Source: Muricauda sp. SCSIO 64092 (lineage in GTDB: Bacteria > Bacteroidota > Bacteroidia > Flavobacteriales > Flavobacteriaceae). Taken from it: DNA of 64,000 bases. Of the stretch, positions 4,017 to 39,395 are shown in pieces. The notes under the pieces are model-generated. The model was not told where the DNA came from. It ran no database searches and worked only from the letters and a program-made list of their open reading frames with translations. Positions within the stretch are counted from its first letter, which is position 1, and every line of letters starts with the position of its first letter. The position numbers were made by a program, and so were the translations under genes. The stretch is taken from the NCBI RefSeq assembly GCF_023016285.1, contig NZ_CP095413.1, forward strand, positions 4,295,001 through 4,359,000. Direction: 5' to 3'.

Positions 4017-4022
4017 TGGGAT

Positions 4023-23582: not shown

Positions 23583-24524
23583 ATGCCTTATTCAGAACCA
23601 AAACCCCAAACTTGGTTTATAAAGTCTTCCATAAACCCAAATTTTGAGTATGCCCGCCAACATTGTCTTGACTGGGCCTTAAAGTTTGAATTCGTAAAAA
23701 AAGATGATAGAAATTACCAACGCTTGGAGATTTCCAAGATTTGGATGTTGACCGCTCGGGCCTACCCATCGGCAACAAAAGAAGAGCTTTGTTTCGCAAC
23801 CGAATGGTTTACCTGGTTGTTTTGTCATGACGATATTTGTGACGATTCCCAATTAAGAAATCAACTCGATAGCTTGCTTGTCCTGCACAAAGAATTTATG
23901 GCCATTTTATTGCATAAGAAGATGCCTGGCAAAAGTGATCCTTTGCACCGTGGCCTGCTTCATATTCGAGAGCAATTGGACGATATTACGGCTGAAAAAT
24001 GGATTGCTACATTTACCGAAGATGTACGACTATATCTTAACGCAACACGTTGGGAGGCTAAAAATCGTAGGTACAATACCATAAACAGCGTTTCTTCATA
24101 TAACAAAATGAGGTTATTCTCAGGAGCGGTATATACTTGTTTCGATTTGATTGGAATGTTCCATCAAATCGATGTGGATGTATCGTTTTTAAAAGACCTT
24201 CCTTTTAGGCAAATGATAACAATGGCAAACAATTGTGTTTGTTGGGACAATGATATTCGTGGCGTGGCCAAAGAATTGAAAGAGGGAACAACAAATCTTA
24301 TTACTTGTTTGAAGCATGAACATCATATTTCAATCGAAGAGGCCATTAAAAGAGCACAAAAGATGTGCGATATGGAAATGGAGGATTTTTTTGAATTTAA
24401 AGAACGGTTGCCAAAGTTTGACGAGCAAAAGTCGTTGCAACAATACACAGCCGGTTTAGAGTCTCTCGTACAAGGTCATATAGATTGGTATTCCGATACC
24501 GAGCGCTATACCGTCAAGGATTGA
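23583..24524 (+). CDS. Class I terpene synthase
   Basis: A 313-residue soluble protein of the bacterial terpene cyclase fold. The Asp-rich motif DDICDD (about residue 83, CHDDICDD) and the NSE-type triad NDIRGVAKE (about residue 222) that bind the Mg-diphosphate cluster are both present. A terminal RY pair is also present (WYSDTERY, about residue 305). The length is typical of monocyclic/sesqui- or diterpene cyclases without fused domains. It stands alone except for the unknown gene at 24629, with no prenyltransferase or P450 nearby. The product cannot be predicted from sequence reading. It uses a prenyl diphosphate made elsewhere on the chromosome. Confidence 0.88.
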   Translation: MPYSEPKPQTWFIKSSINPNFEYARQHCLDWALKFEFVKKDDRNYQRLEISKIWMLTARAYPSATKEELCFATEWFTWLFCHDDICDDSQLRNQLDSLLVLHKEFMAILLHKKMPGKSDPLHRGLLHIREQLDDITAEKWIATFTEDVRLYLNATRWEAKNRRYNTINSVSSYNKMRLFSGAVYTCFDLIGMFHQIDVDVSFLKDLPFRQMITMANNCVCWDNDIRGVAKELKEGTTNLITCLKHEHHISIEEAIKRAQKMCDMEMEDFFEFKERLPKFDEQKSLQQYTAGLESLVQGHIDWYSDTERYTVKD

Positions 24525-24628: not shown

Positions 24629-25372
24629 ATGTCCCAATTTATTCAAAGAAAGCCCAGTGAACTTTCCCGCAAAGAAAGAAGTCAGGTGAAAGCCCTGTTC
24701 GAACGGTACTACCCTACAGTTAATGATGAATACATAAATGATAGGTTATCAAGCGTTTATGGTTTTAACATCGTTCTTTTGAAAAGCCATGGTATTGTGC
24801 TGGGGGCCAGCTATTACAAAATGGACAGGCTAAAAACCCCTTTTCAACAAAAGAAAATTCCGGTCGTCCAGTTCGGCCAGGTACTAAAAAATGAATATTA
24901 CGAGGATGGTGTCATTTGGCGCACAGGGCATTGGTATGCCCAAAGGAATATAAGTTATTACTATTGTATAAAGCCAACAGTGGGACTATCCATGATCAGC
25001 TCTCCAAAAGTCTTCGAGCATTTTACCAGGCTTTTTAAGAACCATTGTCCGAATTTAGGGCCTATGGAGTCGGGCAATAGCATATCCATCGCCGACTTTT
25101 TGCAAAATATATACGGAAAAAGAGGGGTAAAACTTAGGTTCCGCACAAAACATTGTCTCGCCCTATTGAATTATGAACCTATTGATATTACCGATAAATG
25201 GGAAAGGTATTACAAATCCAAAAATGAATCGATCAATACGTTTTTCATTGAGAATGAGATCATAAAACGTAAAGGTGATAGAATTTTCGATAACAATGTT
25301 GCATTAATTGCATGTGGTTATCGAAATCCTTGGAGTTTTATGGCAAGGAAAGGGGTACAGATTCAAATTTGA
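24629..25372 (+). CDS. Unknown protein, possible GNAT-like fold, next to the terpene synthase
   Basis: 247 residues, no signal peptide, starting 105 bases after the terpene synthase on the same strand. The N-terminal part (LSRKERSQVKALFERYYPTV, then FNIVLLKSHGIVLGASYYKM) has the helix-strand-strand rhythm of N-acetyltransferase folds. I see no clear acetyl-CoA loop, so this is weak. Aromatic-rich middle (WRTGHWYAQRNISYYYC). If co-transcribed with the cyclase, it might tailor or sense the terpene product; that is conjecture. Confidence 0.55.
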   Translation: MSQFIQRKPSELSRKERSQVKALFERYYPTVNDEYINDRLSSVYGFNIVLLKSHGIVLGASYYKMDRLKTPFQQKKIPVVQFGQVLKNEYYEDGVIWRTGHWYAQRNISYYYCIKPTVGLSMISSPKVFEHFTRLFKNHCPNLGPMESGNSISIADFLQNIYGKRGVKLRFRTKHCLALLNYEPIDITDKWERYYKSKNESINTFFIENEIIKRKGDRIFDNNVALIACGYRNPWSFMARKGVQIQI

Positions 25373-25749: not shown

Positions 25750-27501
25750 CTAATCCCATGAAGGCACTTGTGATAAATCCGAAATAAGCCTGTGTTTTTG
25801 ATTGGGTTTTAAATCCAGGTTATGGGATTGTGACAAAAAAATCAGGGTCTTCTTATGCTGCAGTTCCTTGAGCATATCCCGCACCAAACGTTCCATTTTG
25901 GGGTTCAGGCATTCAAAGGGTTCCTCTATGATAAGGATGGGTTTTTCGGTAAGTAGTGCACGGCAGTACATAAGTAGTTTGGTCTGGCCTAAGTTTAGAT
26001 TACATCCCAAATCCCCGATGTGGTTGTGCAGTTGTAAGCGGTCCTTAGGGTTTTCGTGTTGCTGTAAATACGCCAGCAATTTTTCCGCCTTTTTCTTACG
26101 TTCTTTATTTCGGCTATAGACCAGGGCCTCATAGACGTCCCTACCGTATAGTGGATAATCATTGGAAACCACTGCCATATTTTTCCGAATGGTTTTTTCC
26201 GAAAGTGAGGTATAGGGAATATTGTTTACGCTCAATTGTCCTTTCTCCGGGGAAATGATTTTGAGCAAAAGCTTGATGAGGGTAGATTTACCACAGCCTG
26301 AGGGGCCATATAAAAAAGTTGAGGTTTTGGGCCGGATTTCAAGATTCAGGTTGCCGAAGACCGGTTTTTCCATCGCTTCATAACGAAATTGTACATTCTC
26401 GAATCTAATGGTACGGTCCTCAAAGGACAATTCTTCAAAGGGCAGGTCATTCTCTTTGGACATCTTGAATACCCGTATCAATTTTTCGAACGAAATATTG
26501 CCCAACTTCCATACAATACTTACCCTCAGTGTTCTGCGAAGTACTGGGAGTATGGCAAGAATGAGCAGGATAATAATCAATAAAGAGCCGCCATCGATAC
26601 CATCTTGGTCAATGGATCCATGAAGTACATATACCATAATTATACCCAACAGGCCATAGGTTAAGGCAGGGATACTCGCCTGTAGCAAGGCCACTGTTCC
26701 CGCATACTTTTTTCCAATTCCATACAGTTTTTCGGAACGTTTGCGATATCTTTTGTTCTCCGGGGTGTATTTGTTGAATGCCTTTAGGCTGGAAATGGCC
26801 CGTAACCGCGTGTTTACAAAAGAGAGCATCCCCGATTTTCGATTGCGTCTTTCCAAGGACTGTTGGTACAACACTTTATTAAGGAACCACAATACTATTG
26901 TTGCCAATAGGATGAAGCCTAACATAAGCCCTGCGAGGACCACATCCATAAAGACAATTACCGAGAACACAATTCCCAAAAGCAATATATCCTGCAGAAA
27001 TCGCAATACCCCATTTTTGATATAGTTCTGTATGCTTTTCAGGTCACCGCTAAAGCGTAGTAGGTATTTTCCGATTCCTTTTTTGTCATAAATGGGCATG
27101 GCTATCTGCACTTGAGCGGCGAAAAGCCGTTCCCTTAGGGATTTGGCAAATCGTTCCCCTACCCATGCAATGCCGTAACGGTTGGCATATTCAAACAAGA
27201 ACCGGAGGCCCACCAAACCGAAAAAGAGCAGAAAGAAGCTGGTATGGTCAGTGGTGTCCATATAGGGAATAAATCCAAAGGCCTTCAACCTATGGGAAGA
27301 GAACCCAAAGGCAAATTCATAAAATCTACCAATGCTAATGGGAATCAGGATGGTAAATATATTATAGGCAAATCCAGCTAATAAGGTCATGGCCACCCAG
27401 ACCTTGTTGAAATTTATAAAGTCACCTATTAAACTCCATTTTGTAGTTTCCACACGTCGGTTTTTTGGAAAAGACCACACCATCACAAAAATATTATTCA
27501 A
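25750..27501 (-). CDS. ABC transporter (fused permease-ATPase) with atypical nucleotide-binding motifs
   Basis: 583 residues. A six-helix exporter-type membrane domain (about 30-330) is followed by a nucleotide-binding domain. Walker A is normal (GPSGCGKS). The signature is LNLGQTK instead of LSGGQ, Walker B ends in IIEEP rather than LDEP, and the H-loop region reads FLSQSHN. These departures could mean slow, regulated or lost ATP hydrolysis. There is no N-terminal C39 peptidase, so it is not a double-glycine peptide processor. It overlaps the end of the HTTM-DCC gene by eight bases, so they are translationally coupled. It is last in the nine-gene minus-strand block. Confidence 0.8.
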   Translation of the reverse strand: MNNIFVMVWSFPKNRRVETTKWSLIGDFINFNKVWVAMTLLAGFAYNIFTILIPISIGRFYEFAFGFSSHRLKAFGFIPYMDTTDHTSFFLLFFGLVGLRFLFEYANRYGIAWVGERFAKSLRERLFAAQVQIAMPIYDKKGIGKYLLRFSGDLKSIQNYIKNGVLRFLQDILLLGIVFSVIVFMDVVLAGLMLGFILLATIVLWFLNKVLYQQSLERRNRKSGMLSFVNTRLRAISSLKAFNKYTPENKRYRKRSEKLYGIGKKYAGTVALLQASIPALTYGLLGIIMVYVLHGSIDQDGIDGGSLLIIILLILAILPVLRRTLRVSIVWKLGNISFEKLIRVFKMSKENDLPFEELSFEDRTIRFENVQFRYEAMEKPVFGNLNLEIRPKTSTFLYGPSGCGKSTLIKLLLKIISPEKGQLSVNNIPYTSLSEKTIRKNMAVVSNDYPLYGRDVYEALVYSRNKERKKKAEKLLAYLQQHENPKDRLQLHNHIGDLGCNLNLGQTKLLMYCRALLTEKPILIIEEPFECLNPKMERLVRDMLKELQHKKTLIFLSQSHNLDLKPNQKHRLISDLSQVPSWD

Positions 27502-28831
27502 TAAAACGGACCTTGTCGTCCAGACCCACTAATGCACATGAATCTTGTTTCCCAAACCAAGTATAGCGGTGGCGTGCAACCACATTGTACATAGTATCCC
27601 TTATAAAACTTGGAACAAGGATAAGCACTGAAAGCAAAGGCCACATGGATTTTAGCCTTCCCAGAATCCGGAGCACGGCTTCACTTTTTCGATATAGGAT
27701 GCCATCTTCGATCAATACGAGGGAATCCATGCTGTCTTTAACGGCGAAAGGTTTAAGTAAGTCATTCGCGGTAGCTGATTGGAGGGATGCGAACCGAAAC
27801 TCCGCTTTTGTTTCGTTTTCCATGACAAAACGCACCCAACCATTACAAAGGTTACAGACCCCATCGAAAAGAATGACCGGCGATGAATTCTGGTTTGTGG
27901 ATGTTGCTGTGGCGCTTTTAGTATTATTAGCGACCTTCCTGCGGGCCTTGGTAAACAATTTTTCAGGGGCAAAAAAGGAAAGGAAGATTAATCCGGTCAT
28001 CTGGTACCGAAAGGTAATTCCCATGATAAAATAAATGCCCCAGTGCATGCCCCATGTTAAGACGGCCCAAAACCTGCCCCATCTTTTTTTGTAAAGTGCC
28101 AAGGGTGCCCCCAGCTCTACAATAAAGGTAAAAATACCCAATAGGAAAAACAGCCATGTATGTTTGTAAATCACATTGAAGAAGGGTGCGGTTTCGGCTC
28201 CTAATATGGATTTGCGTATGGCATCCACGGCAATTTGAGAACGCATGGCGCTGCCAGTGGCCCAATCCCAAGCCAAATCACCAGCAATTTTGGCCACACC
28301 GGATAGAAAATAGGAGCCAACGGTTACAGCACAGATGAGCATAATAGGCCAACCATATCGCCAATGGGCATTTTGTTTAGGAACCCCTTTTCGTCGTTGG
28401 CTCCATGCATCTACGGACCATGCATCTGCCGAAGCCACCAAGCCCACAATAAGGATATGCAGTACAAGGGCATTTCGGTTGTGGTAAATCATTGACCATG
28501 AGTTGCGATAGCTAAAGAACAGCAAGGCTAAAATGGCAAATGCCGGCCCGGTGATTCGAAACTTCCATCCAAGGATGTAACAGATGTTGAAAACGATCAA
28601 CAGGACCGAAATCCACCAAAACAGGTTTGCATGCAGGGGCTCTTGCATCCAGGATAAAAGGCCCACGGGCTCAAAGGCATCCGTATTTTGTACCATACGT
28701 TGCAGCATATTGAAACGGGACAAAAGATACCAAAGGCAAAAGCCCCCGGTGGCCATACGTATAATGGCGAGACGTTCTGGGTTTACCTGTGCAAACCAGA
28801 CATTTTTAATACTGTTCCATACCATATTCAT
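27494..28831 (-). CDS. HTTM membrane protein fused to a DCC thiol-disulfide domain
   Basis: From the start at 28831 (MVWNSIKNVW follows MN) there is a multi-pass HTTM domain, the membrane part related to vitamin K-dependent gamma-carboxylase (about residues 10-310). A C-terminal DCC-family (DUF393) domain follows, with the signature ILFDGVCNLCNGWV (two Cys) and a conserved late ARHRYTWFGK segment. The longer in-frame start at 28975 would overlap the upstream gene heavily and is rejected. HTTM plus DCC fusions suggest membrane redox chemistry. It overlaps the upstream gene's 3' end by 26 bases and the ABC gene by eight. Confidence 0.8.
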   Translation of the reverse strand: MNMVWNSIKNVWFAQVNPERLAIIRMATGGFCLWYLLSRFNMLQRMVQNTDAFEPVGLLSWMQEPLHANLFWWISVLLIVFNICYILGWKFRITGPAFAILALLFFSYRNSWSMIYHNRNALVLHILIVGLVASADAWSVDAWSQRRKGVPKQNAHWRYGWPIMLICAVTVGSYFLSGVAKIAGDLAWDWATGSAMRSQIAVDAIRKSILGAETAPFFNVIYKHTWLFFLLGIFTFIVELGAPLALYKKRWGRFWAVLTWGMHWGIYFIMGITFRYQMTGLIFLSFFAPEKLFTKARRKVANNTKSATATSTNQNSSPVILFDGVCNLCNGWVRFVMENETKAEFRFASLQSATANDLLKPFAVKDSMDSLVLIEDGILYRKSEAVLRILGRLKSMWPLLSVLILVPSFIRDTMYNVVARHRYTWFGKQDSCALVGLDDKVRFIE

Positions 28832-29288
28832 CACTATTGATTTTATAGATTGTAATTTTCCGTTCCAAGACCGGGAGGGTGTCTTTCTCAAGAAAATATC
28901 CCTCCAGGTGATAATATCCCTTGACCAGTTCCAGGGCCATAAGCCTGTCATAAAGCTGAGGTTCCTTTTTTGCAATGTTACCTGCTACTTTTTGGAGAAA
29001 GGGTAACCCCTTTTCTTTTTTTCTCGCCTTGTTGATCTGCCGTCTTACTTGATTGAATCCTCCAGTACCTGCCAATTTGTAGGGAATCCTGAAGTCTTGC
29101 CCTAAAGTATCATGCCCCACCACGTAGTAGAGGCCATAGTTTTGTGTCCTTTTTTTAGCAAACATGGGGTAGTACGATAGTGGAAAACTATCTTTGGGAT
29201 GCTTTGCCCAATTCTGTACAACGGGAGAAAGTACCAGAAGGAGTACGACTATACTGAAAACCAGGGCCTGTATCTTTGAAAAATTCAT
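28806..29288 (-). CDS. Membrane-anchored orphan protein preceding HTTM-DCC
   Basis: 160 residues. One N-terminal transmembrane anchor or uncleaved signal (SIVVLLLVLSPVVQNW) and an extracytoplasmic part rich in Lys, Gly and Tyr (SYYPMFAKKRTQNYGLYYVV). Proteins with this SYYPMF-type motif are often encoded next to HTTM proteins, which I recall without a precise family name. The 3' end overlaps the HTTM-DCC start. Likely forms a complex with it. Confidence 0.55.
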   Translation of the reverse strand: MNFSKIQALVFSIVVLLLVLSPVVQNWAKHPKDSFPLSYYPMFAKKRTQNYGLYYVVGHDTLGQDFRIPYKLAGTGGFNQVRRQINKARKKEKGLPFLQKVAGNIAKKEPQLYDRLMALELVKGYYHLEGYFLEKDTLPVLERKITIYKINSDEYGMEQY

Positions 29289-29311
29289 TGTTATTGTGTT
29301 TTAGGGGGATT

Positions 29312-30358
29312 CTAGATTACCATTTGTACCTTTTTGTCACCTAGCAATTTGCTTAAAAGTGCTCCATCGACCAATTTCTCCAAGGTCAGGACCGGAAGCT
29401 TTTCCTTCCGTTCCACTTCCCCTACCATAAGCGGACTCCCGGTAAACCGCCCCCCGAGGGCGAACAGGCGCTCAGAAAAGATTGGCGACAACATTTGAAT
29501 GCCCGTGTGCACTGCAAGACTGTCGCTGCAAGACAGGATAACATGGTCCGCAGTATCCGTAAAGGGCAGGTGGCACATTAGTTTATGGGTTTCCCTTTGA
29601 TAGAGGCCATCCGCAATTTCAATGACCACATAATCGAATTGCATTTTGGCCACTTCCTTAAGCAGTCCCTCATGGATATCGAGAATCTCATCCAGAGTGC
29701 AGAGGTAAGTAGAAGGATAGCCCATCTCCGAAAAATCGGTCACATAGTCGGCTCCACAATCCAGGCAAAGCATTTTGTCCTTGTTAAAAATTGTGCCTGT
29801 CAACTTTATATAGGCCACTTTATTTCCTGCATTTTTTAGCCCGCGGCAAAGAAAAGCCGCCGTTGTTGTCTTACCGCTGTCCATACTGGCCCCAACAGAA
29901 AGAATAGTTTTGAAAGGCCGGGATTTGAAAGGTTGGAATGGTGTGGTTTCCCTGTGATGATATATGGTATTGATTACCTTGCCGCCCGAGTCGGTAGCAT
30001 AGCCTACCAATTTTAATTTGGTTGGCCCAATATCTTCCAGTTTGTAATACATGGAGGCCACATTACCAACCACACCGCCTTTGCCCACAAGGTCATATAC
30101 TTCTTGATATGCTTCTGGCACATAGGCTTCAAATTGATTACTGGCATAGCGGTTTCCAAAAGCGGCCATAATGTGGTCCTCTTCAAATATGTAACAGTTC
30201 CTTCCTTCAAAGTCCTGAATAGCTTTAATGGACCATAATTCAAGTACTTCAAAAATGGCAACGTCCCCTGGCTTGGGTATATGGGTGGTAATAATGTCCC
30301 GATCAATTGTAAAATCGGTTACATACTTACAGCTATTTGCTTTCTTGATTATTTTCAT
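29312..30358 (-). CDS. P-loop NTPase of DUF1611/dethiobiotin-synthase-like type with extra N-terminal domain
   Basis: 348 residues. The N-terminal 150 residues form an unknown domain (IPKPGDVAIFEVLEL, then GVVGNVASMYYKLEDIGPTKL). The C-terminal half has a Walker A of the SIMIBI kind (GASMDSGKTTTA, about residue 160) and a DYVVIEIADGLYQRET segment that matches the second catalytic region of DUF1611 or BioD-like enzymes. A CLDCGADY segment provides two Cys. Such folds couple ATP to ligation or carboxylation. It lies 23 bases upstream of the small membrane-anchored gene and is clearly part of the block. Substrate unknown. Confidence 0.65.
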   Translation of the reverse strand: MKIIKKANSCKYVTDFTIDRDIITTHIPKPGDVAIFEVLELWSIKAIQDFEGRNCYIFEEDHIMAAFGNRYASNQFEAYVPEAYQEVYDLVGKGGVVGNVASMYYKLEDIGPTKLKLVGYATDSGGKVINTIYHHRETTPFQPFKSRPFKTILSVGASMDSGKTTTAAFLCRGLKNAGNKVAYIKLTGTIFNKDKMLCLDCGADYVTDFSEMGYPSTYLCTLDEILDIHEGLLKEVAKMQFDYVVIEIADGLYQRETHKLMCHLPFTDTADHVILSCSDSLAVHTGIQMLSPIFSERLFALGGRFTGSPLMVGEVERKEKLPVLTLEKLVDGALLSKLLGDKKVQMVI

Positions 30359-30385
30359 GATACTATCTATTTGTGGGGTTTATAA

Positions 30386-31159
30386 TTAGATTTTGAAACG
30401 ATAGGAGAAACTAAAACTCAATACTGAAAAGTTGTTAAACCCCCTCAGGATATCACCATCCCGGGGATCGACTACGTTGATTTGGCGAAATCTACTCCCT
30501 ATATTGAATTCGGTTTGCCTCATAAAACTCAAACTGACATTGGCACGTTTAAAAGGTCTAAACCGGACACCAATACGGATACGGTGTGCGTGCAGACCAT
30601 TGGGTGATTGGCGCACAATAACATCCCCATCCGTATCCCTATAATTCAATGGCCTGCCATTGAGGTAATAATGAAGTTCATTGGTCATATAAGGTGTAAT
30701 GTCCATGGGAAGTCCAAAATCACCTGCATTGAGCCCCAATGCGTACCGAAGGCGATATTCAAATTTACTTCGTGAAGGAAAGTGCCATTCTGCCCGAAGT
30801 TGGTTGGCAATCCTAAGTTTTCCCAGCTTAAATCGATAACGTACCCTAGGGTCAATTCTATTTCTGGCCTGCTGATCGGGATCTGCCGGATCCGAAGAAC
30901 GGATGTAACCCAATCCTACAGTGATGTTACGGTTGAACCGATAGTCAATACGGGCACTATTCTGCATCGAGGTAAGGTCCATCCGGTCATCGAAAAGATA
31001 AAGTTGACCTGCCCGAACACGCCATTCCTTGGTAATATTGGTTCGGTACGAGTGCCCTGCCCAGAATTTCATGCCTTCCTGGGCAGAAAGGGGCAAGGTC
31101 AATAGGCTCACCAAAAAAAGTAATAGTAAGGGGTTGTTTTTGGGATGTATCATTTCCAT
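30386..31159 (-). CDS. DUF2490 outer-membrane protein
   Basis: 257 residues. Signal peptide (about MEMIHPKNNPLLLLFLVSLLTLPLSA-QE), then an outer-membrane barrel with features of DUF2490: FWAGHSYRTNITKEWRVRAG, ARIDYRFNRNITVGLGY, RVRYRFKLGKLRI, LRAEWHF, and a final strand SFSYRFKI. DUF2490 proteins are unassigned barrels of Bacteroidota and Gammaproteobacteria. It lies between the CHAT gene (127 bases upstream) and the P-loop gene (27 bases downstream). Confidence 0.8.
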   Translation of the reverse strand: MEMIHPKNNPLLLLFLVSLLTLPLSAQEGMKFWAGHSYRTNITKEWRVRAGQLYLFDDRMDLTSMQNSARIDYRFNRNITVGLGYIRSSDPADPDQQARNRIDPRVRYRFKLGKLRIANQLRAEWHFPSRSKFEYRLRYALGLNAGDFGLPMDITPYMTNELHYYLNGRPLNYRDTDGDVIVRQSPNGLHAHRIRIGVRFRPFKRANVSLSFMRQTEFNIGSRFRQINVVDPRDGDILRGFNNFSVLSFSFSYRFKI

Positions 31160-31286
31160 TTTTTTTCAATTGGGGATTGTATTGTTTATTTCTATAAGGG
31201 GAAAACGCTGGAAACGTGACCAAAGAGGTGACAATTTCTAGGATCGCCAAAGCGTGACGGAGTGCCCGCGGCAGGGAATGGTGGGC

Positions 31287-34118
31287 TTACGAGGTTTTTG
31301 GGCGCTTAAAATACCGGTATAGGAAAATACCAACAACCAGGGATGATCCCATGGCCAAAGCAATCAAGTACCAAGGAAAGCGCGTGGCTGGTCCAACCTT
31401 GCCCACCAGGACAAAATTGGCCCAATAATAAGGATGCCGTTGGCTGGGTGTTACTTCTTTTAGGTAGTTCAGCTTGGCCTTCTGGAGTGCCAAATCAAAA
31501 GGAACACCTTGTTTCACATATGTTAAAAAAGAGTGGGTAATGCCCAGGGAACTGGACTCACTTGCATTCCAGAGACTGGAAAGCACATTCTGGGAGCCTG
31601 CCAGTAAAAAGGCTTTGCTCATGCCCTGTACGCCCTCTCCATTGTAAATCTTGCCATTCGCTGAATGACAGGCACTCAATAGCACCAAATCCGCCCCTAA
31701 GCGGTTTTTATAGAGATCGGGTGGGGATAGTAGAAATTCCTTCTTTGTATCATCAAAGATGATGCACGATCGGCTGGGGTCATCGGTATCGACCAGACCA
31801 TGTAGTGACAAGTGCAGAATTCGGGCATTATTGGCATTGTTGTAAAAATTCTCCAGGGATGCCCCGTCATCGAGAAATGTTTTGCCACCAAAGATTTTGG
31901 AAGCCTGTTCGACTTCTTTTTTGGAAAGTGAAAGTGGCGACAAGACCTCTTCACCAAAGAAACGCTTTCTGAACCTTAGTTTTGTGCTGAGCGAATTACT
32001 ATATGAAGCTGCAAAGCCCATATAGTCCTCTGGAGGAATTTCCCCATTATCACCTTTTCGTCCAAGAAGTTGCGTGGCATAGGCGTACGTGAACGCATAG
32101 TCCTCGATAAGATGGCCCCCACCGTTGTGCAATACCTCAAAAGATAGGGTATGCAACGAACCATCGGGAATAATGCACAGACGCTCCACATTTGTTAGCC
32201 GTGACAGTCCTTCTTCCATCAATTGCTCAAAAATGAACTGGGAATCTGTCTGTGAAAAGGGTATTTCGGGGTTGCCACATTGTTCGGTGAACCGTTCTAT
32301 GCATTTTCGGAGTTTTGGGGTAAGCGGCACCGTTGTACTGAAAAATTGGGTGGAGGAAATCCAAAAAACATAAATGGATTCCTGGGATTCAAAAAACTCC
32401 AGTACGGCCAAATCCCCCGGAAGCTTTTCCTGTATGGCCTGGATGGGGGGAACTTTCAAAAACCGATACCGTTCCCTGTAATATTTGGGTTCCCTTTCTT
32501 CCAATCGTATCAAAAAGGCATCCAGGGCATTTTGGGCCTGTAGAAATGACTGTAACAAGGAATCCCTATTGTTATCGGATGCCTCAAAAAGAAGGGATTG
32601 TTGCGCGTTCATTCTTTCACGAAGGCTACTTTCCTCTTCAAGAATGGTCTTTGAGGCCGTGGTCCGCAAGGTGTTGATGCGATTGAGCTCCTGTTGCAAG
32701 GTCAAGGCCTTGGTCCTGGCCGAGAATTGATGGGCCTGCTCCAAATAATAGGTGTCCCCTGTTAGATCGTATAGCCGCAATGCATCTTGTATGGCCTTGC
32801 CATAATATTGGAACCGAACATCCAGAAATTCAAGTTTCGATTGCTCAAATTGAAGGGAGAGCAATCCTTTTTTGATCACCGAATCAATTTTATGTTGTAC
32901 GTCCAAGGAATGTTGGAGCCACTCCAAATCTCCTCCCTTCTTATACTTTTGTTCGAAAATACGGGTCTTTAGCTCCATTAGGCGGATCAAGGTATTCTGG
33001 TTCTTGATCTCTATATTGCTTACGGTAGGGACCGTTCTTTGATCAAGCTTTGTATTCGGTGCCACCATACGAAAACCCTTTGCCAACTGTTCGTTTGCCC
33101 TGTAGAACGCTCCTTGCTTTAGATATAGCTCGGCAAAATTTTCATAGGTAAGGGCAATCATTTCCAATCCGCTACCTTTTTGATAAAACTGTTTCCGTAT
33201 ATATAGGACTTCATGCATTATATCCTCGGCTTGCTTGAATTCCTTTTTTTCCATATGTAAAAAGGCCAGTACTTCAAGACCAATGGCATAATATTGTGGA
33301 CTGCCCTGCCGGTCAATAAGGCTTAATGCCCTTTTGGCCAGGGTTTCGGCACGGTCATATTTCTTTTGTTCAAAAGCAATCTTGGCCGCATTCAGATATA
33401 CTGGAACCACATCTTGTGTTGCCATTAAATCTGGTTTGGTCTTAACGAGTTCCAAGGCTTGTCCAACATATTCGGATGCTCGATTATAATCCTTAAAGTC
33501 CAAGTGTAGAGTTACGGTACTGTTCAAGGCGTTGAATTTCCGCGGGATGTCATTTTCCTGTTCGAAGAGATTGATGGCATTGGAAAAGTAGAGTTGGGCC
33601 CTGAATAAGTCGTTGATGGATTCATAGAAGAGTCCAATTCCATGATACTTTAACCCCAACTGATGCGGTGGATAATCTTCAGTATTTTCAAAAATGTTTA
33701 ACGCTTGATCAAGGTAGCCCTTTGCTTCTTCGGTATTCCCCAGATATTGATGGCAAATACCTAAATTATAAATCGTATTGGCCTTTTCACTAATGGGCAC
33801 TTTTGAACAGTTCTCCCACAGGGGAAGTACCTTGTCGCCAAAATAGTCAATGGCCTCGGCCTCCCGGTAGGCCAAATAATAGGAAAGCCCTATTTTATGG
33901 TAAATCCGGCCTTTATCGTAACAATCCAATCTCTGGAATACATCGGCTCTCTCAAGTTGATCAATCAACCTAAAATTGGCCTCGTAGTCTTCTGTTTCAA
34001 TATTGGAATTGATTTGACTGTAGGTCTTGTCAAAATATTCATTACCAAAAACAAAGTGGTTTAGGAAGCAACATAAAATAAAAAGCCGTATGCCTTGTAG
34101 CTTGATCAATGTGGGCAA
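31287..34118 (-). CDS. TPR-CHAT protein (caspase-like protease), membrane-anchored
   Basis: 943 residues. N-terminal signal (LFILCCFLNHFVFG), about eight TPR-like repeats (residues about 60-400), a helical linker, and a CHAT protease domain from about residue 590 with the catalytic dyad His773 (HLSLHGLVD) and Cys817 (VLLSACHSANG). A C-terminal transmembrane helix (about 919-937) with basic tail follows. CHAT proteins are caspase-related peptidases. Placed after a sigma factor, a TPR membrane protein and a subtilisin, this one may be a periplasmic sensor-protease. Topology predicts the protease outside the cytoplasm, unlike the cytoplasmic CHAT effectors of type III-E CRISPR or gasdermin systems. 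Confidence 0.88.
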   Translation of the reverse strand: MPTLIKLQGIRLFILCCFLNHFVFGNEYFDKTYSQINSNIETEDYEANFRLIDQLERADVFQRLDCYDKGRIYHKIGLSYYLAYREAEAIDYFGDKVLPLWENCSKVPISEKANTIYNLGICHQYLGNTEEAKGYLDQALNIFENTEDYPPHQLGLKYHGIGLFYESINDLFRAQLYFSNAINLFEQENDIPRKFNALNSTVTLHLDFKDYNRASEYVGQALELVKTKPDLMATQDVVPVYLNAAKIAFEQKKYDRAETLAKRALSLIDRQGSPQYYAIGLEVLAFLHMEKKEFKQAEDIMHEVLYIRKQFYQKGSGLEMIALTYENFAELYLKQGAFYRANEQLAKGFRMVAPNTKLDQRTVPTVSNIEIKNQNTLIRLMELKTRIFEQKYKKGGDLEWLQHSLDVQHKIDSVIKKGLLSLQFEQSKLEFLDVRFQYYGKAIQDALRLYDLTGDTYYLEQAHQFSARTKALTLQQELNRINTLRTTASKTILEEESSLRERMNAQQSLLFEASDNNRDSLLQSFLQAQNALDAFLIRLEEREPKYYRERYRFLKVPPIQAIQEKLPGDLAVLEFFESQESIYVFWISSTQFFSTTVPLTPKLRKCIERFTEQCGNPEIPFSQTDSQFIFEQLMEEGLSRLTNVERLCIIPDGSLHTLSFEVLHNGGGHLIEDYAFTYAYATQLLGRKGDNGEIPPEDYMGFAASYSNSLSTKLRFRKRFFGEEVLSPLSLSKKEVEQASKIFGGKTFLDDGASLENFYNNANNARILHLSLHGLVDTDDPSRSCIIFDDTKKEFLLSPPDLYKNRLGADLVLLSACHSANGKIYNGEGVQGMSKAFLLAGSQNVLSSLWNASESSSLGITHSFLTYVKQGVPFDLALQKAKLNYLKEVTPSQRHPYYWANFVLVGKVGPATRFPWYLIALAMGSSLVVGIFLYRYFKRPKTS

Positions 34119-34273
34119 ACATTAGACGGGGCGTATCCCAATTCGAAACCAGTACCAAAGTAACGAATTTAAACACGACCCGTTCAACCTTTTTGCACAA
34201 TACCCTTATAAGCAATCAAAAAATAGTCTTTAGTTTACATTTGCAGCCATACTTTCCTACACCATGACTATGG

Positions 34274-35635
34274 TTAGTTGCAGGAACCCATATTTGAAAG
34301 CGCCGAAGTAAAATCAATAATACCTTGTGAAACTACCCGATCTCTTAGGTCGTCCGAAAAGATGGATGTCTCTATAAGCGAACATTTTATGGCATTGGCA
34401 TTACCGCCATGCGAAACCATGATTGTGGCCATTGCGGTCGCAATCGCAGTGGTATATGAGGTACCTGATTTGTCCATTTCATTACCATTTAGATCCATGG
34501 TGGGGATGTTTTCCCCCAAAAAGGCCAAATCGACCGTATTGGGGCCAAAGCTGCTAAAGCCGCTCAATCTGTCCTGGCAACTTGTTGAGGCAATCGAGAT
34601 AATGCCTTCATTGGGATAGGAGGCCGGGAAGGAAATAATATCATCCGTATCATTGTCGTTGTTGGTATTTCCGGCCGAGGCAATCATTAAGGCCCCTTTT
34701 CCCTCTGCGTAATCAATGGCCAGCCGCAATGGTCTATCCTGGGTATCCCCATTGACATCCTGATAGCTAAAGCTAAAGTTCAGGATTTGGGCACCCTCAT
34801 TAACAGCATCCAAAATGGCTGGAATCAGGTTGGAGACAAAACCAATACCCTGACCGTCATGGGTTTTCCGGATATCAAAAGCAATGGAGGGGACCTGCTG
34901 ACCTTGCCCTATCAAACCATAAATCAGTCCGGCAATCTGTGTACCGTGCCCGTTTTCATCATTGGGTTCATTATCATCATCAATATAATCGTAGCCCGTA
35001 AAGTTATCAAGGGAAAATCCAGTGGTCTGCAGTACATTTTTATCAATACCCGAATCAAAAATGGCAATTTTGACCGCATTGTTCCCTATCGTGGCCAGGC
35101 TGCCCGCATCGTCAAAACAAAACAAGTCCTGGGAGGCCAGGGGCGACTGTATGGAAGAACCAAGGTTAAAAGCGACGTCGTTCAGTTCAGCTCTGGTCCG
35201 TGCACTAGCGATTTGCCCATCGATATTGGTCACTTGCTGGCCCTGTGCATCGGTATAGGGAAATGCTGTGGTGTTCCACAACCGTAGGTTAATTTCCTCA
35301 CGAAACCAAACTTCCTCAGAATTCAGGTCGTCCAACAAATCTTCGACCTCGTCCTCCGAAATAGTAGGATCCAACCGCACAAAATACAATGATGGATGTT
35401 TTGTAATCTCAACATCTTCATCGTCATCATCGTCATCATCGTCGTCGTCGTCATCGCCGTCATTGGAGCCGTCATTGTTTTTATCGTCGTCATCGCCATC
35501 ATCGTCATCATTGTCATCTCCTTGGGCCAATTCCTGTTCCATGAGGTCTTCTTCCAAATCGTCGCTACAGGAGAGTGTGATGCCCAATACAAACCCGATC
35601 AGCAGTACTAAAAACAAATTTTTTCTGATTTTCAT
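34274..35635 (-). CDS. Subtilisin-family (S8) peptidase lipoprotein with poly-aspartate linker
   Basis: 453 residues from ATG 35635 (MKIRKNLFLVLLIGFVLGIT). A lipobox ends LGITLSC at about residue 23. The longer frame from 35779 has no signal and is rejected. Residues about 40-75 are almost pure Asp with a few Asn and Gly. The catalytic triad is complete: Asp in IFDSGID, His in NGHGTQIAG, Ser in SGTSYTTA, plus the oxyanion Asn in ASAGNTNN. It lacks a classic inhibitor-type propeptide; the stretch between the Asp linker and the catalytic domain may serve. Predicted surface- or periplasm-anchored serine protease. The linker may bind Ca2+, which S8 enzymes use. Confidence 0.88.
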   Translation of the reverse strand: MKIRKNLFLVLLIGFVLGITLSCSDDLEEDLMEQELAQGDDNDDDDGDDDDKNNDGSNDGDDDDDDDDDDDDEDVEITKHPSLYFVRLDPTISEDEVEDLLDDLNSEEVWFREEINLRLWNTTAFPYTDAQGQQVTNIDGQIASARTRAELNDVAFNLGSSIQSPLASQDLFCFDDAGSLATIGNNAVKIAIFDSGIDKNVLQTTGFSLDNFTGYDYIDDDNEPNDENGHGTQIAGLIYGLIGQGQQVPSIAFDIRKTHDGQGIGFVSNLIPAILDAVNEGAQILNFSFSYQDVNGDTQDRPLRLAIDYAEGKGALMIASAGNTNNDNDTDDIISFPASYPNEGIISIASTSCQDRLSGFSSFGPNTVDLAFLGENIPTMDLNGNEMDKSGTSYTTAIATAMATIMVSHGGNANAIKCSLIETSIFSDDLRDRVVSQGIIDFTSALSNMGSCN

Positions 35636-35840
35636 AGCAGTAGTTTTAAGGTTAAAATAGGTGTTATTTTTTTTAAGTCCATGTGATTGTGCCGGTAATT
35701 GATTTTCCTGCCGCATCGAGCGCCCGCCTGAATGACATGGTCGGACAGGCAATCGAGATGTTTTTTTGACTGCGCCCAAGGAGACAAAAATGTGAATTTT
35801 GATGACAAAATTTAAATACTGGCATAATTACGGACATACA

Positions 35841-36518
35841 TTATTTTTTTAATTTTTCCATAAGTTCCTGGGCTTCATCAAATTGCCATTCCCCCTTTTC
35901 AATCTGCCCAAGCCTATATCTGGCAGCTTTATCCTCGCCATCCAATACGTAGGCCAGGGACAGGAACCAATTGGCCTCCTCTTGAAAACGGGAAGTTTCC
36001 GATGTACCATTTTTTAACTGTTCAATCGCCTTTTGGTACTGCCCATTTTTGAGATAGGCAAGCCCTAAATAATGGATGTCCTCTTCATTGGGTGAAACAA
36101 TCCTTTCGAATTGTAGGATGGCCTTTTCAAAATCGCCATTGTTAAAGGCCCGTATGCCCAGTGTTTTATTTGCATCTGATTTGGCAATTCCTTTGAATCC
36201 CCCGGGGTGTTGCAGGATTTGGGAGTCAAGATATTGGGTCGCCAGAGCATGGGGCGATACATCATTTTGATTGACCACGTACAGGGTTACCAAGAGTGCC
36301 AAGCTGGCTGCAGTTGCCAAGATCGGGCGGATGTACCGCAGCACAAAACCTTTTTCAGGGGTCTTTTTGATACCATATCGGTCATCCAGGGTCTGGGACA
36401 GTTCATCCCGAAGCTCTTCATCCTTGATTTGGGTGACCCAGATTTTCAAGGTATCATCCAATTTGGCCATATCGGTTCCTTTGGCCAAGAATTCTTTTAT
36501 TCGCTCGTTTTGTTGCAT
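35841..36518 (-). CDS. TPR membrane protein, possible anti-sigma factor
   Basis: 225 residues. A cytoplasmic N-terminal 75 residues (acidic-basic, QNERIKEFLAKGTDMAKLDD), one transmembrane helix (about 87-103), then TPR repeats (AFNNGDFEKAILQFERIV, LAYLKNGQYQKAIEQLKN, LAYVLDGEDKAARYRL) outside. The arrangement, one base downstream of the sigma gene, is that of a membrane anti-sigma factor. The N-terminal part would bind sigma and the TPR part would sense a partner, plausibly the CHAT or S8 protease. It lacks known zinc or FecR-like motifs. Confidence 0.65.
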   Translation of the reverse strand: MQQNERIKEFLAKGTDMAKLDDTLKIWVTQIKDEELRDELSQTLDDRYGIKKTPEKGFVLRYIRPILATAASLALLVTLYVVNQNDVSPHALATQYLDSQILQHPGGFKGIAKSDANKTLGIRAFNNGDFEKAILQFERIVSPNEEDIHYLGLAYLKNGQYQKAIEQLKNGTSETSRFQEEANWFLSLAYVLDGEDKAARYRLGQIEKGEWQFDEAQELMEKLKK

Positions 36519-36519
36519 T

Positions 36520-37068
36520 TTAGGAGGTTTCTAACATTAAATCCTTTATTTTTTTGATGCATCGTTCTTTTTGTTTTCTGACCGTTGCCGGGGATTTTGA
36601 CAATTCCCTGGCAATTTCCGTCAGTTGCATGGCCCCATAGTAGTGCTGGGTCAGCAACTGCTTGCAATTGGCCCCCAATGACCGCCATGCCATTCTGAAA
36701 CTTTTCGGTACCCCTGCTTCAACATGGTCGTCCGCAATTTCCCTTAGCGTTTCCAGGTCTTCATAGGTAAGTTGTTGCCTTTTTTTGTTTCGTAGGTACA
36801 TTTGTGTGCTCATTTTGGTAAACAAAAAACGAAGATTACCGTATTTTAACTTGCCATCCACAAACCGCTTTCTGAACTCCAGAAGGGCATCCATTGTGGC
36901 ATCGTAGGCATCTTCATGGCTTGCCCCGTATTCGCGTTTAACATAGTTCAGGGTCTCCTTAAACTGTACCAAAAACACCTGTTGAAAAAAGCGGGTATCG
37001 TTCGCTTTTAAATCGAGGACCATTTGCCCAAAAGATGCTTCGGTCAGGCCAAAGTTCTTACGTTCCAT
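36520..37068 (-). CDS. Sigma-70 family (ECF-type) RNA polymerase sigma factor
   Basis: 182 residues. Region 2 (DAYDATMDALLEFRKRFVDG, then YGNLRFLFTKMSTQMYLRNK) and region 4 with a helix-turn-helix (QLTEIARELSKSPATVRKQK) are in the right order and spacing for an ECF sigma factor without extra domains. First gene of the nine-gene minus-strand block, one base before the TPR protein. A perfect inverted repeat lies 40-83 bases upstream of its start (37108-37151). It probably transcribes the block and is held by the next gene's product. Confidence 0.85.
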   Translation of the reverse strand: MERKNFGLTEASFGQMVLDLKANDTRFFQQVFLVQFKETLNYVKREYGASHEDAYDATMDALLEFRKRFVDGKLKYGNLRFLFTKMSTQMYLRNKKRQQLTYEDLETLREIADDHVEAGVPKSFRMAWRSLGANCKQLLTQHYYGAMQLTEIARELSKSPATVRKQKERCIKKIKDLMLETS

Positions 37069-37440
37069 ACATGGCTGTTTTCCTTATTTCCATTAACGGT
37101 TATTCAAGGTAAGGACAAGTTTTTATATGCCCATTTTTAATTGTCCTTACCGTGCTTCTTTATGATAATAAGGGAAAAAAGTATAAAACGTGACATTTTT
37201 TATATGGAAGTGATTAAAACTTTTTCCATTTGCTAAAAAATTGCCCTTTTTTGCCCATTTTTCTTCTTTTTTTCCTTCCGTAGCCCTGCTATGCAACTCA
37301 AAAAAGCTTTCAAATGGTCAAAAAATTCCTAATTTTCGCCTAAACGCAAAAAGTTTAAATCACTTCATGGGGATTTTTTTTGATGTTCCTATAGGTGGGT
37401 TTAAAAGGTGACAGATGAAAAATTCACAATAATTGCAAAT
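37069..37440. other. Promoter region of the sigma-factor block
   Basis: A very AT-rich intergenic region of about 370 bases, containing the inverted repeat described below and homopolymeric A/T tracts. No gene. Confidence 0.45.
37108..37151. promoter_or_regulatory. Perfect 11-bp inverted repeat upstream of the sigma gene
   Basis: GGTAAGGACAA (37108-37118) and TTGTCCTTACC (37141-37151) are exact complements separated by 22 bases. On the minus strand they lie 40-83 bases before the sigma start. Possibilities are a dimeric operator, a leader hairpin, or an autoregulated promoter element. Confidence 0.75.
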
Positions 37441-38091
37441 TCAAATTTTCTTGGCAAATGCTTTTTCATCTTTCCTAGAAAAACCGTAGACAAAAAAACC
37501 ATCTTCATTGATTTCTGATATGGGAATTATCGTTGACCTAAAACCATCTAAATAGAAGCAAAGAAAGAGAATGTCTTTAAAAGTTTCCAATCGTAATTCT
37601 TCTCCAAGTACAAAATCCTTTTTTAAATATGGAATATCCTTGACATCATATATGGAATTAAATTGAAGTACATTTCTAATTCCATTTAACGTCAATTCAT
37701 AATCATCAAGCATTAATTTTTCAATATCGATAGTATTGATTGATTCAGTTGGCCTCAAACGAACATAAAAAAGCTCAACTTCCTGTAAATCGTTATCCTC
37801 TCTGTTTTCCACTTTCAGTTTTACAAGAAGATGAGTATTTGAATACCATATAAACTTGGTATTAAACTCAGTTCCGGAACTCTCAAAAAAATCCTTGGGA
37901 CTACCCTTAAATTCTTCTTCCAATTCATCAAATTCATAAGAAAGAATTTCATTTTCTTGAATGATAAGAATATTGGTTTTGGGAAAGACCAATTCATTGA
38001 AGTTTGAATCCAACCTTAACCATACACCATTGAAATTATGGGTATTTACTGACAACGTACTTGAAATTATCATTAAAAAAATCGGTTGCAT
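37441..38091 (-). CDS. Secreted orphan protein, paralogue A
   Basis: 216 residues with a weak signal (MQPIFLMIISSTLSVNTHNF). The N-terminal beta part begins FNGVWLRLDSN, as in lipocalin-like proteins. The second half aligns with the neighbour at 38141 (LGEELRLETFKD..., FLCFYLDGFRSTIIPISEI, FFVYGFSRKD). Separated from it by 49 bases on the same strand. Probably a tandem duplication of an unknown secreted beta-protein. Confidence 0.55.
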   Translation of the reverse strand: MQPIFLMIISSTLSVNTHNFNGVWLRLDSNFNELVFPKTNILIIQENEILSYEFDELEEEFKGSPKDFFESSGTEFNTKFIWYSNTHLLVKLKVENREDNDLQEVELFYVRLRPTESINTIDIEKLMLDDYELTLNGIRNVLQFNSIYDVKDIPYLKKDFVLGEELRLETFKDILFLCFYLDGFRSTIIPISEINEDGFFVYGFSRKDEKAFAKKI

Positions 38092-38140
38092 ACAAGGTCA
38101 CAGGACTTCTTTTTTTTAATTTAAATTCTCCTCTATGAAA

Positions 38141-38818
38141 CTAATATCTCTGAGTTTGCCTAATTGCTTTAAATATAGTATCTGAAAGGGAAATTCCGTA
38201 GAGAACGATAGTCTCGGAATCTATGGATTTTATAGGAATTGCATGGATTCTATCCCTACCGTGTAGGTAAGAAGTAACAAAATAGTAATCATCAATATTC
38301 TCGATTCTCAATTCATCTCCCAGCACATTTCTTTCACCTAAATGAGGAATTTCGTCTATTTCTAAAGTTCTTCCAAAAGTCAATATTGTTTTTCCATCAG
38401 TGAAGTAAACCTCATAAGAAGAAGAATTAACAATACTTAAAAGTTTTTCTTTATCCTCTTCGAATATCGTTGGAACTAGTTTTACGTAGACTTTTGGTAA
38501 ATCAACGATAATGCCATTTACCTCTGCTTTGTATATGATTTTAAGATGATTGTCATCCAGCAGTTCATATTTTGCCTGCCAGTTCCTGATTATGGTTTGG
38601 TTTCTTTCCTCCTTACCATGATGGACAAAATCAAATTCCGAATCAAATCGATATCTAGTAATTTTTGTATCTGAGAATTCAATTATCTCATCTCTAAGAT
38701 TACTGAGAAAATTTTTTTCGTAGTTAATGTGTTTCCATAAACCATTCAATTCTTGACCCATTGCATTTGATGAAATTAATATGAGAAGGATAAACCGTAT
38801 CGAACTGTTCAAAATCAT
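38141..38818 (-). CDS. Secreted orphan protein, paralogue B
   Basis: 225 residues. Clear signal (FILLILISSNAMGQ). Starts ELNGLWKHINYEKN, a lipocalin-like opening. The C-terminal half is homologous to the 37441 product (LGDELRIENIDD, then YLHGRDRIHAIPIKSI, IVLYGISLSD). Function unknown. Upstream gene of the pair. Confidence 0.6.
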   Translation of the reverse strand: MILNSSIRFILLILISSNAMGQELNGLWKHINYEKNFLSNLRDEIIEFSDTKITRYRFDSEFDFVHHGKEERNQTIIRNWQAKYELLDDNHLKIIYKAEVNGIIVDLPKVYVKLVPTIFEEDKEKLLSIVNSSSYEVYFTDGKTILTFGRTLEIDEIPHLGERNVLGDELRIENIDDYYFVTSYLHGRDRIHAIPIKSIDSETIVLYGISLSDTIFKAIRQTQRY

Positions 38819-38915
38819 TTGCTAGTCAATCAATCCAAAACTAATATAGAAAATAATGAGCCTAAATCCTTAAGTTCATATTTGGCATCCTATTTTATTG
38901 AAATAAAATTGTTAA

Positions 38916-39395
38916 CTAGAAGCAATATCTTGCTTTTGAAACAGCAACACCACTTCTACAGGGACCAACCGTAAATGTTGCCATAGAACCTCCCCAGCTT
39001 TTGATAGTACTTTGAAGGTTTTTTCGCGTAATTCTCTTGAGATCTATAATGTTTTTGGAATTTCCCTCCAGTTCTGATTCTGTGATTATGATTGCGGACT
39101 TCCAAGCAAGATTAAATAATGTATTGGCCCGAGTTTTGGTAATAGACTCTAGGTTTCCTATTACATTTCTTATTTTCTTAGGAATTGTAACACAGCTTCT
39201 GCCAAATTCTGCATTTTCAATTATTAATTTACCCCGATATGGTACATAAAACCCATAACTCAACCCCAAGTCATCAATATTTACTGTCCAGGAGTTATCT
39301 TGGTCTTGAACTTTGCAGTAAATTTTCTTCGTGTCATATTCAGTAAATCCAATGATTAAACTTATTGTCCTATTTTTTGTGGTATCTAAAGGCAC
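38916..39395 (-). CDS. Orphan protein with GTG start
   Basis: 159 residues. The only usable start is GTG 39395 (MPLDTTKNRTISLIIG). No signal peptide is evident, and the N-terminus may be missing. Residues 40-110 contain a beta part (YGFYVPYRGKLIIENAEFGR) and basic helices. The C-terminus (IKSWGGSMATFTVGPCRSGV, then KARYCF) with two Cys looks like a disulfide-bonded end. No family recognised. Confidence 0.4.
   Translation of the reverse strand: MPLDTTKNRTISLIIGFTEYDTKKIYCKVQDQDNSWTVNIDDLGLSYGFYVPYRGKLIIENAEFGRSCVTIPKKIRNVIGNLESITKTRANTLFNLAWKSAIIITESELEGNSKNIIDLKRITRKNLQSTIKSWGGSMATFTVGPCRSGVAVSKARYCF

Follow-up and report, generated by a model that had tools for sequence, protein, structure and literature searches.

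Gene organization of the locus

The DNA analysed here, referred to as the window, is a stretch of 64,000 nt from Muricauda sp. SCSIO 64092 (GCF_023016285.1, NZ_CP095413.1, positions 4,295,001-4,359,000), and the operon under study occupies its positions 25,750-37,068. The open reading frame (ORF) list and family searches give nine co-oriented genes, all on the minus strand (Table 1). They code for an extracytoplasmic function (ECF)-like sigma factor, a membrane protein with tetratricopeptide repeats (TPR), a subtilisin-like protease of the S8 family, a caspase-like TPR-CHAT protease and five further proteins, from DUF2490 to an ABC exporter. The set is conserved in marine bacteria, appears to be under the control of its own sigma factor and suggests an envelope alarm that proteolysis would trigger.

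From the sigma gene to the ABC gene, the junctions measure 1, 205, 155, 127, 27 and 23 bases, followed by two overlaps. An earlier sequence-only reading of this DNA had described nine minus-strand genes with five of eight junctions below 30 bases or overlapping and a largest gap of about 205, and the coordinates agree. The start of the S8 gene was set at MKIRKN and that of the HTTM-DCC gene by the length of its homologues. Topologies were predicted by a simple hydropathy scan, according to which the HTTM-DCC and ABC proteins are multi-pass and the sigma factor and the P-loop protein have no transmembrane segment (TM).

Table 1. Genes and promoter sites of the operon, in coordinates of the window and from the sigma gene onwards.
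Feature	Position	Strand	Remarks
Promoter P1, GTCACGTTTTATACTTTTTTCCCTTAT	37168..37194	-	5' of sigma gene; one of two genome-wide matches
ECF-like sigma factor, 182 aa	36520..37068	-	Sigma70_r4 1.9e-05; TIGR02937 5.6e-12
Single-pass membrane TPR protein, 225 aa, proposed anti-sigma factor	35841..36518	-	TPR families; TM 65-83
S8 subtilisin-like protease, 453 aa, lipobox-like LSC, SDDLEED, poly-Asp tether	34274..35635	-	Peptidase_S8 2.5e-27
TPR-CHAT caspase-like protease, 943 aa	31287..34118	-	CHAT 1.5e-45
Promoter P2, GTCACGTTTCCAGCGTTTTCCCCTTAT	31194..31220	-	5' of DUF2490; second of two genome-wide matches
DUF2490 protein, 257 aa, signal-like N-terminus	30386..31159	-	DUF2490 1.4e-16
P-loop NTPase, distantly DUF1611/MobB-like, 348 aa	29312..30358	-	Sub-threshold CbiA/DUF1611/MobB matches; Walker A GASMDSGKTTT
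Small membrane protein, 160 aa	28806..29288	-	N-terminal TM; conserved SYYPMF block
HTTM-DCC membrane protein, ~443 aa	27494..~28825	-	HTTM 8.4e-08; DCC1-like 6.2e-29
MsbA-like ABC exporter, 583 aa, non-canonical ATPase motifs, last gene	25750..27501	-	ABC_membrane 4.9e-29; ABC_tran 1.9e-20

Conservation and bounds of the gene set

A search with the sigma protein returned 185 relatives at E <= 0.001, of which 40 were aligned (alignment A1). Scanning genome contigs with this alignment gave 60 loci (L011-L070), many of them cut by contig ends. The same nine genes are found in the same order in 13 other loci of Flavobacteriaceae (L011, L014, L015, L017-L026), belonging to Aquimarina, Poritiphilus, Flagellimonas and further members of the family; in these 13 loci the fetched DNA stops within the ABC gene. 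L016 is devoid of DUF2490, and the contigs of L012 and L013 stop within the operon. The sequence-only reading had named beforehand, as its test, that the genes be kept together elsewhere, which these 13 loci confirm.

Of the 60 loci, 56 contain the TPR cluster, 46 a CHAT gene and 44 an S8 gene. The four genes sigma/TPR/S8/TPR-CHAT reach Saprospiraceae, where S8-CHAT mostly lies on the opposite strand: of the 44 loci numbered L027 and higher, 25 have S8 5' of the sigma gene and in reverse orientation to it, with CHAT following S8 in 23. The five-gene cassette running from DUF2490 to ABC was found almost only in flavobacterial loci. Only two of its genes, P-loop and ABC, occur in any Saprospiraceae locus, both in the same one (L027, arranged sigma-TPR-S8-CHAT-P-loop-ABC). 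The core comprises four genes (three where it is most widespread), and the five genes of the cassette would serve as its output.

The ABC gene was present in all nine genomes for which DNA beyond it was fetched. The 87 ORFs located 3' of ABC in these genomes gave only two weak pair matches (24-29% identity, 22-27% coverage), and because these matches are so few and partial the gene set is considered to end at ABC. A chance neighbourhood was rejected in view of the conserved gene order, the promoter placement and the downstream bound. Among 119 host relatives, own genome included, a sigma match at 1e-10 was found in 10 and a close one in only four, which belong to a single genus and count the own genome among them; the system is therefore patchy.

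A promoter motif shared by the sigma gene, S8 and DUF2490

A repeated block upstream of the sigma gene was resolved by pattern search into the motif GTCAC-N17-CTTAT. With spacings of 15-19, 77 motif sites were counted in the 60 loci versus a mean of 12 in five base-shuffles. Generic promoter and terminator scans returned background level only.

Counted in the region from -300 to +150 of gene starts, the motif precedes sigma in 31/60 regions and, with N18, in two others; it precedes DUF2490 in 13 of 13 loci and S8, when it is the first gene of its own unit, in 14 of 26 (two more with N16). It is found before the P-loop gene in 2/15 cases, which are the two loci without DUF2490, before S8 following TPR in 1/17 and before other genes in 5/460. 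No site was found before TPR (0/53), CHAT (0/47), the small membrane protein gene (g7, 0/14), HTTM (0/14) or ABC (0/18). In these counts, the other spacings from 12 to 22 were nearly empty and the reversed control gave 0 everywhere. The stricter form GTCACRYT-N14-CTTAT has exactly two matches in the 5.69-Mb own genome, both in the operon, and none in the control. Because of the position and conservation of the motif, we infer its recognition by the sigma factor of the operon: it is very probably the target promoter of this factor, through which autoregulation and transcription of S8-CHAT and of the output cassette would proceed.

The sequence-only reading had expected a single transcript. One conserved system stands, but it is probably organized in two sigma-driven units, a second sigma-type promoter being located 5' of DUF2490. 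A single transcription unit was rejected since this second promoter is kept in every one of the 13 loci.

The motif was also searched genome-wide in 34 genomes, drawn from 40 of the 60 loci. The 14 flavobacterial genomes contain 27 sites, 25 of them within the locus. A wide regulon in the own genome was rejected: 10 sites with one mismatch were counted against 14 in the reversed control, i.e. background. Off-locus sites were fetched from four other genomes (five sites) and from the genome of L045 (15 regions). In the genomes of L032 and L033, where no S8-CHAT lies beside sigma, the extra motif site precedes an S8 gene, followed by CHAT in L032. One motif region of the L045 genome, in which S8 is likewise not adjacent to sigma, contains an S8 gene with a type IX secretion system (T9SS) tail. 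The three remaining sites (L129, L130, L132) and the other L045 regions stand in front of other genes, many of which look exported. The L045 genome (regions L113-L127) carries 18 motif copies; several are located 5' of genes for T9SS-sorted or lipoprotein-like products, for an S8 protease and for a C39-like ABC exporter, so that the regulon may be enlarged there to a group of exported proteins.

The sigma factor and the TPR protein

The sigma factor is recognized barely above the cut-offs (45.6 bits for TIGR02937, cut-off 42.9; 24.5 bits for Sigma70_r4, cut-off 24.1), and no solved structure matched its profile. The TPR protein matches only TPR-type families, and the solved structures matched by its profile are TPR-repeat chains (best 60 of 98). 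It is predicted to have a cytosolic N-terminus, a single TM and its TPR repeats outside. All 50 TPR proteins scanned across the 60 loci show a TM.

The sequence-only reading had called the TPR protein anti-sigma-like, and more distant loci support it as a candidate anti-sigma factor. The place of the TPR protein is held there by zf-HC2 proteins in L189 (2e-5, above the cut-off) and L188 (3.5e-4, just below), both with one TM and a different outer domain. The zf-HC2 domain is a zinc anti-sigma signature. The middle proteins of L184 and L185 resemble this type by eye and gave no Pfam match. When the N-termini of 22 distant TPR proteins were combined into a profile, it aligned with the set formed by L184, L185, L188 and L189 over 91 columns, TM included (95.8%).

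An HPGxxKG block that adjoins the TM of the TPR protein on its outer side was considered as a cut site and dropped, as it is not kept in distant TPR proteins. In L059 (positions 1793-4567), the gene directly after sigma codes for a 924-aa protein in which a TPR-protein N-terminus (98.1% over 88 columns) is joined to the plug and barrel of a TonB-dependent receptor. This fusion is possibly an anti-sigma protein spanning from the cytoplasm to the outer membrane.

The S8 and CHAT proteases

Both proteases have intact active sites. The S8 triad D194/H230/S393 is invariant in 43/43 sequences and the CHAT dyad H773/C817 in 41/41, window included in both cases; the CHAT His and Cys are also kept in 43/43 sequences of a distant comparison (window and 42 distant sequences). 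Matches of S8 among solved structures are subtilisins, and those of CHAT are only TPR chains, e.g. kinesin light chains. The poly-Asp stretch of S8 is the sole direct repeat in window positions 20000-45000.

The sequence-only reading had located both enzymes outside the cytoplasm, in line with the export now predicted for both from the hydropathy scan and signal-like N-termini. S8 starts with a hydrophobic stretch followed by the lipobox-like LSC, as seen in the scan and by eye. The mature N-terminus would be C-SDDLE, which by eye fits a lipobox with an SDDFE-like motif at +2 to +6. SDDFE is the surface-lipoprotein consensus of F. johnsoniae, as given in the accessible part of the source (PMC5080379). 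The S8 proteins of L027 and L028 have a T9SS sorting tail instead and that of L055 a sub-threshold one. By prediction, the lipobox and T9SS routes would both place S8 at the cell surface. CHAT presents an N-terminal hydrophobic signal and a C-terminal TM at residues 916-934 in the scan. Among 40 full-length CHATs of the 60-locus set, the C-terminal hydrophobic stretch is found in 40 and the N-terminal one in 37.

In six distant loci (L061-L063, L066, L068, L070), sigma and CHAT are accompanied by a conserved cluster of ~526-aa proteins instead of S8. The two members tested have a T9SS tail and DUF7619. In these loci, a surface protein rather than proteolysis may matter.

Association of CHAT with sigma/TPR pairs across the phylum

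CHAT relatives were found in 42 of 149 host relatives (E <= 1e-20) and, in a sample of the phylum, in 108 of 296 genomes (E <= 1e-15), own genome included in both counts. Twenty of 49 distant CHAT places, mostly better-scoring ones, were fetched. A sigma factor and a TPR protein lie within 0.8 kb of CHAT in 16 of these 20, the sigma of L148 being weak (8e-4). In L160 both are 3.6 kb from CHAT, L161 has only a sigma-gene fragment at its edge and L152 and L157 have none. In 20 offset control regions of the same genomes, scanned with somewhat broader profiles, sigma was found in two and the sigma/TPR pair in none.

Twenty further CHATs from outside the family, one per genus, were examined by checking selected neighbours with Pfam. 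A sigma factor is near CHAT in seven of them (L183, L185-L189, L194), and a weaker one in L184 and L198. In L189, where the zf-HC2 protein lies next to it, sigma is recognized by a sub-threshold match to Sigma70_r4_2. L194 has sigma-TPR-S8-CHAT in a row. A C-terminal TM of CHAT is present in 22/22 loci with a TPR-type partner versus 0/4 with a zinc/Ig-type partner, a split that two lineages may explain. The distant triads contain almost no copies of GTCAC-N17-CTTAT, with 1 site in 559 kb. Overall, the gene neighbourhoods and N-terminal profiles support the TPR protein as a putative anti-sigma factor and CHAT as the probable partner of the pair.

The output cassette and the flanking regions

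The ABC protein of the window has E for D in Walker B, the signature NLNLGQ and Q at the H-loop position. Comparing 10 ABC sequences by eye, E for D was found in 7/10 and LSGGQ in 0/10, the H-loop His was absent in 9/10 and Walker A was altered in two. The description of a degenerate ABC in the sequence-only reading thus holds for the window protein and only partly for the family, since Walker A and B vary among these 10 sequences. The P-loop protein belongs to a family common elsewhere (899 relatives) and matched no solved structure. The 160-aa membrane protein had no family match in the family searches. The cassette looks like envelope work and would be co-regulated with the sigma operon through the shared motif.

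Two small ORFs with signal-like starts are located upstream of the operon (37441-38091 and 38141-38818). The G+C content is 0.32 just upstream (window 37001-39000) versus 0.43-0.46 over most of the operon. On the other side, the ORFs as read include one of 313 aa (23583-24524), whose DDICDD motif we take to be terpene synthase-like, then a GNAT-like ORF (24629-25372).

A possible mechanism and its alternatives

The conserved gene set, the intact active sites, the predicted topology and the placement and rarity of the promoter are supported by sequence, and a signalling mechanism can be proposed on this basis. The ECF-type sigma would be held by the inner-membrane TPR protein, with its N-terminus in the cytosol and its TPR domain in the periplasm, and the exported, membrane-tethered TPR-CHAT would be the protease partner of this pair. 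An envelope signal, with the surface subtilisin S8 perhaps acting as sensor or trigger, would lead CHAT to cut the TPR protein in its periplasmic part, and sigma would be released. Free sigma would then read GTCAC-N17-CTTAT before its own operon, producing more S8 and CHAT in a positive feedback, and would also transcribe the DUF2490-ABC cassette, so that the envelope would be altered. Reading of the motif by sigma, inhibition of sigma by the TPR protein, cleavage of the latter by CHAT, the role of S8 and the output function are steps we infer. The odds lie slightly on the side of a self-contained envelope signalling system with a CHAT-released sigma factor and self-driven promoters.

Several observations weigh against this reading. 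Concerning the promoter, 27 of 60 sigma regions (26 loci) lack the motif even at N16-N18, as do 10 first-gene S8 regions; all of these motif-less regions lie outside Flavobacteriaceae except one (L016). Some extra motif copies precede unrelated genes. Concerning the TPR protein, no TM was found at the threshold used in 5 of 16 distant partners, the close and distant N-termini align over 17 columns only (96.0%) and the close N-terminus matches the zinc set with a 7% probability and no direct match. As for CHAT, no sigma was detected near 11 of the 20 outside-family proteins, within the selected neighbours checked with Pfam, and CHATs without a sigma neighbour often carry a C-terminal TM too. 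Finally, S8-CHAT carries the sigma promoter, so S8 and CHAT could be outputs only.

In the main alternative, built on this last point, the TPR protein would sense the envelope on its own or be cleaved by a housekeeping protease, and S8 and CHAT would act only as sigma-induced effectors against foreign, damaged or self surface proteins. The sigma promoter found on S8-CHAT units in divergent loci (the 14 of 26 first-gene S8 regions) is consistent with it, as are the surface-sorting signals of S8 (lipobox-like and SDD-type, T9SS tail in L027 and L028, sub-threshold in L055). It is nevertheless somewhat unlikely: CHAT stays beside sigma-TPR in distant triads, often on the opposite strand and with the motif nearly absent, and accompanies sigma also in loci where neither S8 nor the output cassette was found. 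The argument from distant triads is not decisive, as those other sigma factors may read different promoters.

It is improbable that S8 and CHAT are toxic effectors of a surface-triggered anti-phage or anti-competitor response. CHAT and other peptidases do occur in putative conflict systems, as far as the accessible part of one survey goes (PMC10907252), and PADLOC weakly matched S8 to IetS and to a subtilase model. However, the predicted location of CHAT, S8 and the TPR domain is extracytoplasmic, none of the nine genes was convincingly assigned to a defence family by PADLOC and the output cassette would rather serve the envelope. Two adjoining operons kept together by inheritance only, as the occurrence of just P-loop and ABC in one Saprospiraceae locus (L027) and the 899 P-loop proteins found elsewhere could suggest, are very improbable given the same promoter before DUF2490 (13/13) and sigma (31/60), the stricter form of which occurs nowhere else in the own genome.

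The preferred signalling reading has practical consequences. The many TPR-CHATs tied to a sigma/anti-sigma pair, together with a sharp promoter, offer a concrete and cheap functional test. The operon looks self-contained, with two promoter copies in the genome, and could thus be moved whole to a laboratory host. If CHAT does cut the anti-sigma protein, a caspase-like protease would be a standard envelope sensor in much of the phylum.

Comparison with known systems

The sequence-only reading knew of no described system with this gene set, and none was found in the open literature, subscription papers being mostly beyond reach; what came up for CHAT and sigma was a T9SS review, Craspase and further CRISPR papers. 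The ECF-type GTCAC-N17-CTTAT promoter at the operon is a new finding. No purpose of exported TPR-CHATs is stated in the open literature searched.

The operon shares with PorXY-SigP, which is involved in type IX secretion, a Bacteroidota ECF factor tied to surface proteins; going by the accessible part of the source (PMC7712824), a two-component system acts there instead of the TPR protein and CHAT found here. CHAT and peptidase families are common to the operon and to NTPase-based conflict systems. Unlike in the latter, the proteases are extracytoplasmic by prediction and sigma-linked, and no STAND/MoxR-type partner is present among the nine genes. A defence-system label was rejected, PADLOC giving only weak domain matches.

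The single-pass anti-sigma factor, the envelope signal and the positive feedback proposed for the operon are reminiscent of RseA-DegS-RpoE and RsiW, as outlined in part in PMC10028731. In contrast with these systems, the operon has a caspase-like CHAT in place of the DegS-type protease and a TPR sensor, and its protease is encoded with sigma.

The closest parallel is the type III-E system Craspase (Cas7-11/gRAMP, Csx29, Csx30 and CASP-sigma). According to the portion of the same article that is accessible, the TPR-CHAT Csx29 cuts Csx30, which otherwise blocks sigma, and motifs for sigma lie in its own locus (PMC10028731). Both systems encode together a TPR-CHAT with a His-Cys dyad, an ECF-like sigma and an inhibitor, the latter being a proposal in the case of the operon, and both have a sigma motif within their own locus. 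They differ in that the CHAT of the operon is predicted to be exported and membrane-tethered, its proposed inhibitor is a membrane TPR protein and a surface subtilisin is added. Cas7-11 was not found among the nine genes by family search, nor was Csx30, to which the proposed inhibitor was not directly compared, and no CRISPR-like repeat was found in window positions 20000-45000. The sigma factor weakly matches a Cas9 model (E 0.0056) and the type III-E sigma model (E 0.0053), with no other Cas-protein match. Cleavage of the TPR protein by CHAT is favoured because parts similar to those of Craspase are present, with the protease and its proposed target domain now predicted in the periplasm. In a more ambitious and rather doubtful form of this proposal, the surface subtilisin would activate or license the periplasmic CHAT, CHAT would cut the TPR anti-sigma factor and freed sigma would serve almost only its own locus, the triad being a general Bacteroidota class and the extracytoplasmic counterpart of Craspase. 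If CHAT does cut the TPR protein, the CRISPR version would be one case of a wider CHAT-sigma theme.

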